Assembly: GCA_020249435.1 (NCBI GenBank)
Contig: JADCFQ010000006.1
Coordinates: 1 to 64,000, forward strand
Length of the DNA stretch: 64,000 nucleotides
Direction: 5' to 3'
Source of the DNA: Roseomonas sp.
GTDB taxonomy: Bacteria; Pseudomonadota; Alphaproteobacteria; Acetobacterales; Acetobacteraceae
Position numbers and translations under genes: made by a program. Under the pieces are notes generated by a model that was given only the letters and a program-made list of their open reading frames with translations, ran no database searches and was not told where the DNA came from. Below are positions 5,885-10,838 of the stretch, one piece after another; the stretch's first letter is position 1; every line of letters starts with the position of its first letter.

Positions 5885-7495
5885 TCAACCACCGCGCACA
5901 CGGGCGCGCAATTCGAATTTCTGGATCTTGCCCGTGGCGGTTTTCGGCAAGGGACCGAAGGTAATGTGGCGCGGCACCTTGAAGCCTGACAGATTGGCGC
6001 GGCAGAAAGCCACGATGCCGTCACGATTTTCCGCCGTCCCCGGCTTCAACGTGATGAAGGCATGCGGCACCTCGCCCCATTTTTCATCCGGATGCGCTAC
6101 CACGGCGGCCTCCATCACATCCGGGTGGCGATAGAGTGCTTCTTCCACTTCCAGGCTGCTGATGTTTTCCCCGCCTGAAATGACAATATCCTTGGCGCGG
6201 TCCTTCACCTCAATATAGCCATCCGGATGCAGCACACCCAGATCCCCGGTGCGGAACCAGCCATCCACGAAAACCGTCGCATTGGCCTTGGGATTACGCA
6301 AATAGCCCTTCATGACGGTATTGCCGCGAATGGAAATCTCACCAATGGTCGCGCCATCGGCCGGCACGCGCGCACCGCTTTCGGGATCAATCACCGTCGC
6401 TTCTTCCAGCGTCGGTAAAGCCACACCCTGCCGCGCCATGAAGGCGGCTTTTTCCGGCAAGGGCAGATCATCCAAGCCCGGCTGCCAGGCACATAGCAGC
6501 GATGGGCCGTAGCATTCCGTCAGCCCGTAAAGATGCGTGACATCGAAGCCGAGTGTCTCCATCGCCGCAATCACCGGTGATGGCGGCGCCGCACCGCCGG
6601 TTGCAATGCCAACCCCATGCGCGAAGCGGCGACGCTGATCTTCCGGCGCATGAATCAGCATGGTCAGCACCACCGGCGCAGCGCAGAGATGCGTCACGCC
6701 ATGCTCGGCAATCAACGCAAAAATCCGCGCGGGCTCCACACGGCGCAGGCAGACATGTGTGCCGCCTTGCAGCGTGACCGCCCAGGTATAGGTCCAGCCA
6801 TTGCAATGAAACATGGGCAGCGTCCAAAGATAGACGCTTTGTGCATTCAACCCGAAGGACAGCGCATTGCCGCAGGCATTCAGATAAGCACCGCGATGAT
6901 GCGCGACCACGCCCTTGGGATCACCCGTGGTGCCCGATGTATAGGAAAGCGAAATCGCCGCCCATTCATCTGTCGGTGGCGTCACCGGAAAAGCCGCGTC
7001 ACCGCCCGCGATGAAATCCTCATAAGGCGTCGCTTCAATCGCCGTACCGCCCGGGCCTTCGGGATCATCAATGATGATGATGCGCGGCGGGTTTGCCAGA
7101 CCCTCCAACGCGGTATTCACCAGCGCGGCAAATTCACGGTCCAGCAGCAAGATCTTTGCGCCGGAATGGCTCAGGATGAAGCGCACGGTGGCGGCATCAA
7201 GCCGGGTATTGATCGGGCACAGCACCGCATGCGCCATGGGCACGCCATTATGCGCTTCCAGCATTTCCGGGATATTCGGCAATAGCGCTGCCACCACATC
7301 GCCCGGCGCAATCCCCGCCTTGCGCAAGGCCGATGCCAGGCGGCGGCTGCGTTCGAAAAACGCGGCATAGGTAATGCGCCGCGCGCCATGAATAATGGCG
7401 ATACGCTTGCCCCAGACATGCGCCGCGCGCGGCAGGAAGGAAACCGGCGAAAGCGCCACATGATTGGCGGCGGTTTTCGGCAAATCATCCTGCAT
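5885..7495 (-). CDS. AMP-forming acyl-CoA synthetase
   Basis: A 536-residue ANL-superfamily ligase that activates a carboxylic acid to its acyl-CoA through an acyl-adenylate. The P-loop SYTSGTTGDPKG is at residues 184-195, HLYGLTECYG follows near 315, and the hinge region GWFRTGDLGVLHPDGY and the catalytic-Lys tail PKTATGKIQK are intact. It resembles medium-chain or 3-methylmercaptopropionate-type ligases in length and motifs. In the operon it fills the place of LvaE, the levulinyl-CoA ligase of the P. putida lva pathway. The substrate cannot be fixed from sequence. Confidence 0.93.
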   Translation of the reverse strand: MQDDLPKTAANHVALSPVSFLPRAAHVWGKRIAIIHGARRITYAAFFERSRRLASALRKAGIAPGDVVAALLPNIPEMLEAHNGVPMAHAVLCPINTRLDAATVRFILSHSGAKILLLDREFAALVNTALEGLANPPRIIIIDDPEGPGGTAIEATPYEDFIAGGDAAFPVTPPTDEWAAISLSYTSGTTGDPKGVVAHHRGAYLNACGNALSFGLNAQSVYLWTLPMFHCNGWTYTWAVTLQGGTHVCLRRVEPARIFALIAEHGVTHLCAAPVVLTMLIHAPEDQRRRFAHGVGIATGGAAPPSPVIAAMETLGFDVTHLYGLTECYGPSLLCAWQPGLDDLPLPEKAAFMARQGVALPTLEEATVIDPESGARVPADGATIGEISIRGNTVMKGYLRNPKANATVFVDGWFRTGDLGVLHPDGYIEVKDRAKDIVISGGENISSLEVEEALYRHPDVMEAAVVAHPDEKWGEVPHAFITLKPGTAENRDGIVAFCRANLSGFKVPRHITFGPLPKTATGKIQKFELRARVRGG

Positions 7496-7498
7496 GCT

Positions 7499-7858
7499 TC
7501 AGCCCTTTCCCAAAACCCGTGGCGCGCTGATGGCGCAACGCATCCGCGCCGCATTGCGCAACATTGCTGCCACTTCCGCGTGATGCGCGTTGCCTGGATC
7601 AAAGGCGCCCGCGCGAATAGCGATAGCCAGGGCACGATCCGGTGCGTCAGTCGCGCCCGTCAGACGTTGCATGGTGGCGCGTGTTTCCGCCACCCAAGCC
7701 TCATCCTGCGCAGCCTCTCGTGCCGCAATCGCCATGGCATTGGCGATCATGCGTGCGGTAAAAGCATCCGTGCCGGAAAGTTTCGGCAGGATTTCCTGCA
7801 ATAGCGCGTCGCGCGCCGTGGCCAGCAATCCCGGCCCTTCCGGGGCTTCACGCTGCAT
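7499..7858 (-). CDS. DUF6285 protein, LvaB-like kinase partner
   Basis: A 119-residue, mostly helical cytoplasmic protein. The pattern TARDALLQEILPKLSG...FTARMIANAMAIAARE at the N terminus is what I associate with DUF6285, a family usually encoded next to phosphotransferase-like acyl-CoA kinases. In P. putida the small LvaB protein in the equivalent position is needed for activity of the LvaA kinase. The gene overlaps the kinase gene by 11 bases, which suggests translational coupling and a stable complex. No catalytic motif is visible, in keeping with an accessory subunit. Confidence 0.8.
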   Translation of the reverse strand: MQREAPEGPGLLATARDALLQEILPKLSGTDAFTARMIANAMAIAAREAAQDEAWVAETRATMQRLTGATDAPDRALAIAIRAGAFDPGNAHHAEVAAMLRNAARMRCAISAPRVLGKG

Positions 7859-10059: not shown

Positions 10060-10070
10060 GACACCAATAC

Positions 10071-10838
10071 CTAAAGCGGGTTGATCGAATGGCCGCCATC
10101 CACGGTCACCACCGCGCCGGTCATATGCGCCCCGGCATCGGAAGCGAGCAGCAGAAGCGGCCCGGTAAGGTCCTCGGCAGCGCCCAGCCGGCGCTGCGGG
10201 ATGCGCTTGATCATCGCCTGCCCTGAATCGGAGGCGAAGAACTCACGATTGAGATCGGTCGCGATATAGCCGGGCGCAATCGCATTCACCCGAATGCCAT
10301 GCCGCGCCCATTCCACCGCCAAATGGCGCGTCATATGCAATAGCCCGGCCTTGGCGGCGGTATAGCCAACCACACCCGGAATGATGCGCTGCCCAAGGAC
10401 GGAGGCGATATTCACCACCACGCCCGGACGCTTCGCTGCCACCAGGCGCTTGGCGGCTTCCTGCGCCACCAGAAAGCAGCCGCGCAAATTTACATCCAGC
10501 ACCCCATCCCAATCTTCCGCGCTTTGCTGCAAGGCGGGCTTGGTCACGGCGATGCCGGCATTATTCACCAGAATATCGCAGGGCGCAGCAAAGGCGGCTT
10601 CCGCGGCGGCGAAGGCGGGCGCGATGGTCTCGGGCGCCGTCACATCCAAGGGGACGGATACCGCGCGCGCACCCAATTCGGCGGCCAATGTCGCAGTCGC
10701 GGCTTCGCGCCGCGCAGCCAAGGCCACGGAAGCCCCAGCGCCATGCAGCACGCGCGCGAAATGAGCGCCCAGCACGCCAGACGCACCAGTCACCAGCGCC
10801 ACGCGCCCCTGCAACGAGAACATGCCAGCAATATCCAC
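10071..10838 (-). CDS. Short-chain dehydrogenase/reductase, first gene of the acyl-CoA operon
   Basis: A 255-residue classical SDR using NAD(P)H. The Rossmann motif VTGASGVLG is near the N terminus, NNAGIAV in the middle and the catalytic Tyr-Lys in GYTAAKAG. It would interconvert a keto group and an alcohol. By context it may reduce a 4-keto acyl-CoA as LvaD does. I chose the GTG at 10838 because GGAGGAGG lies 4-5 bases before it; the first ATG is at 10823, and an upstream reading to 10862 would run through the ribosome site. A 113-base divergent spacer separates it from the plus-strand SDR. Confidence 0.88.
   Translation of the reverse strand: MDIAGMFSLQGRVALVTGASGVLGAHFARVLHGAGASVALAARREAATATLAAELGARAVSVPLDVTAPETIAPAFAAAEAAFAAPCDILVNNAGIAVTKPALQQSAEDWDGVLDVNLRGCFLVAQEAAKRLVAAKRPGVVVNIASVLGQRIIPGVVGYTAAKAGLLHMTRHLAVEWARHGIRVNAIAPGYIATDLNREFFASDSGQAMIKRIPQRRLGAAEDLTGPLLLLASDAGAHMTGAVVTVDGGHSINPL

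Follow-up and report, generated by a model that had tools for sequence, protein, structure and literature searches.

What does an alphaproteobacterium break down when it carries all five core functions of the levulinate (lva) operon of Pseudomonas, but arranged in another order? The question is raised by a locus of Roseomonas sp. (assembly GCA_020249435.1, contig JADCFQ010000006.1), of which we analyzed the first 64,000 nucleotides, hereafter called the window. The genome is 3.8 Mb in size and 99% complete, and its nearest named relatives are Roseomonas and Neoroseomonas. The first-pass annotation had placed a short-chain dehydrogenase/reductase (SDR), an acyl-CoA dehydrogenase (ACAD), an APH-type kinase, a DUF6285 protein and an AMP-forming acyl-CoA ligase in one operon, as counterparts of LvaD, LvaC, LvaA, LvaB and LvaE. 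We found that all five are intact open reading frames on the minus strand with the corresponding Pfam matches and that their junctions are tight, with 11 bases between the SDR and ACAD genes, an 8-base overlap between ACAD and kinase, an 11-base overlap between the kinase and the directly downstream DUF6285 gene (the sole one in the genome), and 3 bases before the ligase. The order SDR-ACAD-kinase-DUF6285-ligase indeed differs from the A-B-C-D-E order of lva. The proposed extent of the operon, 5885..10838, has to be revised, as the run continues four genes further, to position 1691.

We consider it very probable, judging by sequence comparison, that this operon feeds a 4-keto or 4-hydroxy acid into β-oxidation by the Lva route, in which phosphorylation is followed by removal of the phosphate. 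The ligase would convert the acid into an acyl-CoA, the SDR would reduce a 4-keto to a 4-hydroxy group where needed, and the kinase, of which the DUF6285 protein would form the second subunit, would place a phosphate onto the 4-hydroxyl. In the ACAD-fold enzyme, Asp373 is predicted to take the alpha/beta hydrogen while Arg248, His256 and Arg259 would hold the leaving phosphate; the product would be a 2-enoyl-CoA, formed with no net oxidation, and the hydratase together with general β-oxidation could complete the breakdown. The same substrate class had been suggested in the first pass and is supported by the phosphate residues and Asp of the ACAD, by the placement of the kinase in the LvaA clade and by the identity of LvaB as a DUF6285 protein. 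If we had to guess at the substrate itself, we would name a 4-hydroxy or 4-keto acid of short to medium length; the SDR and ligase fit a 4-keto acid.

The best solved-structure match of the window ACAD is ACAD11 (2wbi, 6.3e-71). Residues R626, R631, H634, R637 and D753 of mouse ACAD11 have been named, and replacing R626, H634 or R637 is reported to ablate the ACAD step (PMC12440821). In an alignment to 8v3u, Arg248, Arg253, His256 and Arg259 of the window ACAD are the counterparts of R626, R631, H634 and R637, and the catalytic Asp recognized in the first pass, within VDGASEVH, is Asp373. All seven phosphate-binding/catalytic positions of ACAD11 are identical in the window ACAD, LvaC and ACAD11, so that both the Asp base and the R...R..HCMR phosphate site of LvaC are present in the window enzyme. 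The phosphate-site and Asp residues are kept in 87/87 aligned ACADs (the window, 80 named loci, four plasmid relatives, LvaC and a Thermus sequence), the 80 loci being the best-scoring ones of a longer match list, with near relatives over-represented. The full set is found in none of 11 other ACAD loci compared from the same genome (seven readable at all seven positions, two unreadable there); one of these has Asp at the base position but lacks HCMR.

With this residue set kept in all 87 rows and unseen in the 11 other ACAD loci compared, an ordinary ACAD was rejected. SDRs, ACADs, ligases and hydratases do often group together, as they would if the locus were a common β-oxidation cluster with a normal dehydrogenase and an unrelated kinase. 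Yet Asp replaces Glu, three charged residues are kept clade-wide, and nearly every genome with an ACAD of the window clade has an LvaA-type or ACAD10/11-type kinase, either beside the ACAD or elsewhere, which makes such a cluster highly improbable.

As for the phylogenetic placement, the first-pass annotation had tied its reading to the LvaA, LvaC and ACAD11 clades, and this held for the kinase but not for the ACAD. The latter groups neither with LvaC nor with ACAD10/11 but belongs to a third clade, which has full support in a 37-row tree (ultrafast bootstrap (UFBoot)/SH-like approximate likelihood ratio test (SH-aLRT) 100/100, 18 rows), where the LvaC clade received 87/86 and the ACAD11-like clade 100/99. 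In a 70-row tree, 42 window-clade rows split off on one branch (SH-aLRT 100). An orthologue of LvaC or of ACAD10/11 was thus rejected, the window ACAD having its own fully supported clade in both trees; the branching order among the three clades is not fixed by the tree, which was rooted with ordinary ACADs on long branches. As the phosphate-holding residues are all kept, the chemistry stands even though the label "LvaC" does not: the chemistry is known, and the enzyme branch is new.

The closest ACADs, at 97–98% identity, come from metagenome-assembled genomes (MAGs). An ACAD of the window clade was detected in 31/34 other genomes of the genus (the three misses are 77–89% complete), while outside the genus one of 24 sampled genomes matched the window ACAD at E <= 1e-100. 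An SDR gene stands directly upstream of the ACAD in 65/76 fetched loci with room, taken from the 80 best-scoring ones; both this and the spread within the genus speak against a chance arrangement. Among genomes of the same class, 36/288 others match it at E <= 1e-130 (37/289 with its own included). When a sample of the phylum was queried with LvaC, the window clade was recovered in 12 and the LvaC clade in 4 of 298 other genomes. The clade's separation recurs among the plasmid matches, which comprise 33 records with 60–80% identity and another 1551 below 60%; among the matches listed, the next ones after the 33 are at or below 45%. None of the titles or abstract starts listed in our searches of the open-licence literature describes the window ACAD clade, although a paper on it may still exist.

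Two further ACAD types were noted. One clade near ACAD10/11 (L165-L169, L171, L172) retains the Asp and the first Arg, with HGMH replacing HCMR, and no kinase was found beside it. On a Rhodococcus plasmid (L131:3071-9330), an HVMR-type LvaC relative and an ACAD10/11-type kinase adjoin a gene of the AtuA family (acyclic terpene utilization), hinting that this chemistry also occurs in terpenoid breakdown.

The window kinase, in which the HNDFRTGN and DWE motifs of the first pass are present, falls inside the LvaA clade (SH-aLRT 99 in a 30-row set with plasmid LvaA), and LvaA-type kinases are split from those of the ACAD10/11 type at SH-aLRT 100. It is the single kinase of either type in its genome. 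Activity on 4-hydroxyacyl-CoA has been reported both for an LvaA-type kinase (PMC6692424) and for one of the ACAD10/11 type (PMC11342911), so that exchange of kinases would be expected if the ACAD consumes 4-phosphoacyl-CoA. We found that the window ACAD clade is indeed accompanied by either type. In 123 loci we looked for a kinase at a distance of up to 4 kb from the ACAD: 74 have an LvaA-type and 15 an ACAD10/11-type kinase, and in 34, many of them short, none was found. Each kinase was typed by whichever of six queries it matched best, and that of L130 is only 31% identical to its query. Kinase type changes at least three times within the window ACAD clade and six times across the whole tree, a quick one with weak inner forks. 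Of the 10 genomes in which a window-clade ACAD has no adjoining kinase, 9 encode an ACAD10/11-type kinase elsewhere, with 42–60% identity to the kinases of Sulfitobacter and Chelatococcus; an 11th such record is a plasmid, and the search did not extend to its chromosome.

In turn, DUF6285 follows one kinase type only. It accompanies the LvaA-type kinase in 71/71 loci with room for it (a count that includes the window itself and near-copies; three more loci end at the contig edge) and the ACAD10/11-type kinase in 0/13 (two more have no room). The protein named LvaB in RefSeq is itself a member of PF19802 (4.8e-24). A search started from DUF6285 matched 39/398 genomes of the phylum with 43 rows, and covered the window match, 29 fetched loci and nine further genes, with G153 and G419 left out. 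An LvaA-like kinase lies directly upstream in 29/29 of the fetched loci, and in another 12/12 regions, which contain the nine new genes, the kinase is adjacent or fused. Eight single chains pass both the kinase and the DUF6285 Pfam cut-offs: two from Roseococcus, which belongs to the wider kin of the window genome, two beside an SDR and a window-clade ACAD (L208, L209) and four others. A natural fusion is encoded, for example, by Roseococcus suduntuyensis at L058:11199-12545. Given this co-occurrence, the fusions and the reported pull-down of LvaB with LvaA (PMC6692424, quoting Rand et al.), DUF6285 is likely the second subunit of the LvaA-type kinase. No paper came up when the open-licence part of PubMed Central was searched for the term DUF6285.

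DUF6285 kinases also form a sister clade in the tree, to which 23 of the 29 fetched loci belong (the system, sometimes fused, is found in L178-L199, L204, L207, L211-L214, L217, L218 and L221-L240). These clusters share the APH kinase and DUF6285 with the window; in contrast, their ACAD has Glu (RITEGSEEIQ) and lacks the phosphate residues, as in all six distinct sequences aligned. Such a Glu-type ACAD lies within a few kb in 11/20 sister-clade regions, and none was matched in the remaining 9. DUF6285 beside a kinase was on this account rejected as proof of Lva chemistry, the diagnosis of which rests on the ACAD residues and the LvaA-clade kinase.

A gene of the histidine phosphatase family stands right after lvaB/duf6285 in the lva operon of Stutzerimonas (L129:4243-5004) and in a Thermus cluster (L019:10475-11128); it might clear stray phospho-intermediates. 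In Stutzerimonas, DUF6285 (L129:3887-4246) is located between LvaA and the phosphatase. For P. citronellolis LA18T, which has the same phosphatase, lvaB is reported to be absent (PMC6692424); given the Stutzerimonas DUF6285 gene, LvaB may have been overlooked there.

Our search of plasmids with the window ACAD yielded two lva operons, one on a plasmid of Stutzerimonas stutzeri (L129) and one on a plasmid of P. aeruginosa (L018), both used as references. The latter consists of genes for a prpR-like regulator, LvaA, LvaB, LvaC, LvaD, LvaE, DUF485 and an acetate symporter, an order which we take to be that of KT2440 lva. The window operon resembles it in its five core functions, LvaA-clade kinase, DUF6285 partner, ligase subfamily and ACAD active-site residues, and differs in its D-C-A-B-E order and in the addition of a CoA-transferase, an ACAD pair and a hydratase. 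Identity to the plasmid proteins amounts to 50% for SDR/LvaD, 42% for ACAD/LvaC, 46% for kinase/LvaA, 39% for DUF6285/LvaB and 60% for ligase/LvaE. The window ligase and plasmid LvaE belong to the same PRK08162 subfamily; the SDR and ligase assignments reflect identity and subfamily only, and both families are promiscuous. The roles of the lva genes and their PP numbers are those given in PMC6692424.

The word "levulinate" in the first-pass label is a statement on substrate and, as such, a guess. That the same pathway has levulinate or gamma-valerolactone as its natural substrate would agree with the five core functions and with the 60% and 50% identity of ligase and SDR to plasmid lva. Yet the ACAD is of a different clade and the gene order is not the same. 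The absence of an lva-type regulator or transporter, remarked on in the first pass, is borne out: LvaR, LvaF and LvaG were not found within the window (to which the search for LvaF was confined), LvaG has only fragmentary matches of 26–49% identity elsewhere in the genome, and LvaR is matched there only over residues about 305–647, the C-terminal half common to sigma-54 activators. The presence of the clade in nearly all genomes of the genus also better fits a commoner substrate, and we think a strict levulinate operon rather unlikely.

As to mammalian ACAD10 and ACAD11, the window system shares the counterparts of R626, H634, R637 and D753 and the proposed succession of kinase and phosphate elimination. 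Its ACAD is about 38% identical to human ACAD11 and lies outside its clade, and whereas the mammalian kinase is fused to the ACAD, the window has the other kinase type with a separate DUF6285 partner. The identity of ACAD10/11 to LvaC is given as 62% and 56% in PMC11342911, which is at odds with the 34% between human ACAD11 and Stutzerimonas LvaC in our own alignment.

Table 1. Genes and residues of the minus-strand run in the Roseomonas window.
Feature	Position	Strand	Match
SDR oxidoreductase, LvaD-like (proposed: 4-oxoacyl-CoA to 4-hydroxyacyl-CoA)	10071..10838, start uncertain	-	PF13561 4.6e-57
ACAD-fold enzyme, third 4-phosphoacyl-CoA clade (proposed: phosphate removal to 2-enoyl-CoA)	8848..10059	-	PF00441 4.5e-36, PF02770
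Phosphate-holding helix RLGVARLTHCMR (Arg248...Arg253...His256-Cys-Met-Arg259)	9283..9318	-	alignment to 8v3u
ACAD Asp373 in VDGASEVH, catalytic base position (mouse ACAD11 D753)	8941..8943	-	
Kinase with APH fold, member of the LvaA clade (proposed to act on 4-hydroxyacyl-CoA)	7848..8855	-	PF01636 1.7e-36
Kinase catalytic loop HNDFRTGN, residue 204	8223..8246	-	
Kinase metal-binding DWE, residue 224	8178..8186	-	
DUF6285 protein, LvaB counterpart (proposed: kinase second subunit)	7499..7858	-	PF19802 5.7e-19
AMP-forming acyl-CoA ligase, LvaE-like	5885..7495	-	PF00501 2e-80; PRK08162 827.6 bits (cut-off 677)
Family III CoA-transferase (CaiB)	4655..5881	-	PF02515 3.8e-128
ACAD, PimC-like large subunit	3503..4642	-	PF02771/PF02770; best NCBIfam pimC_large, below cut-off
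ACAD, small (IpdE2/PimD-like) subunit	2491..3501	-	PF00441 7.6e-20; best NCBIfam IpdE2, below cut-off
Enoyl-CoA hydratase (crotonase), final gene of the run	1691..2494	-	PF00378 2.4e-58; PRK09245 above cut-off

The kinase start was set at ATG 8855, and that of the SDR may be ATG 10823, GTG 10838 or TTG 10862. A second SDR gene (10952-11701, plus strand) is divergent from the operon; genes at the same position in several relatives of the genus are found as well, with 40–46% identity to the operon SDR. Downstream of the ligase, the run goes on with the CoA-transferase, large and small ACAD subunit genes after gaps of 3, 12 and 1 bases, and with the enoyl-CoA hydratase gene, which overlaps its neighbor by 4 bases; a 74-base gap precedes the next gene.

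These four tail genes (1691-5881) lend themselves to another explanation, namely that the kinase and DUF6285 act on another position or compound and that the ACAD meets some other phosphorylated acyl-CoA (branched, cyclic or dicarboxylic) coming from the tail enzymes. Besides the shared run, the window ACAD clade is set apart from LvaC at 19 positions (by a threshold of 95% and 6 of 7), and the sister-clade DUF6285 kinases work in other gene clusters. However, all four tail genes occur downstream within 9 kb in only 6/53 loci with room (L020, L021, L023, L026, L031, L039), and four of these six loci are near-copies of the window. Since the core can do without the tail, the four genes were rejected as a part of it. 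The residues that bind the phosphate also agree with the 4-phospho geometry of ACAD11, and we hold this explanation to be improbable. L031 and L039 lack an LvaE-like ligase gene in the interval from DUF6285 to the CoA-transferase; at these loci the transferase may take over the part of the ligase. Clustering the genes of 84 neighborhoods for a clue to the substrate gave family-level synteny only, blurred by wrong-frame calls in the high-GC DNA.

Several observations weigh against the proposed 4-hydroxy acid route. The ACAD belongs to a clade separate from LvaC and is only 42% identical to it, and the pair of kinase and DUF6285 is not diagnostic alone, since it also goes with Glu-type ACADs. 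An LvaE-like ligase lies within 5 kb in only 36/64 loci. One of the 10 genomes with no kinase beside the ACAD (G060, locus L049) showed no kinase of either type elsewhere, despite a window-clade ACAD and an SDR; it is a MAG and possibly incomplete.

We further propose, tentatively and with a chance that we place somewhat below even, that the window ACAD clade represents a third independent phosphate-eliminating lineage, spread more widely in Pseudomonadota than LvaC, which would work with either of two kinase types from separate clades on a common natural 4-hydroxy or 4-keto acid other than levulinate, DUF6285 being an obligate activating subunit of one of these types. If true, a third enzyme lineage would be added to the 4-hydroxy-acid route, which has until now been linked with levulinate in Pseudomonas and with ACAD10/11 in mammals. 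This lineage is common in Alphaproteobacteria, and its members at present carry no annotation beyond "acyl-CoA dehydrogenase family protein". DUF6285 would at the same time receive a testable job, that of a subunit of the LvaA-type kinase, backed by strict co-occurrence and natural fusions.

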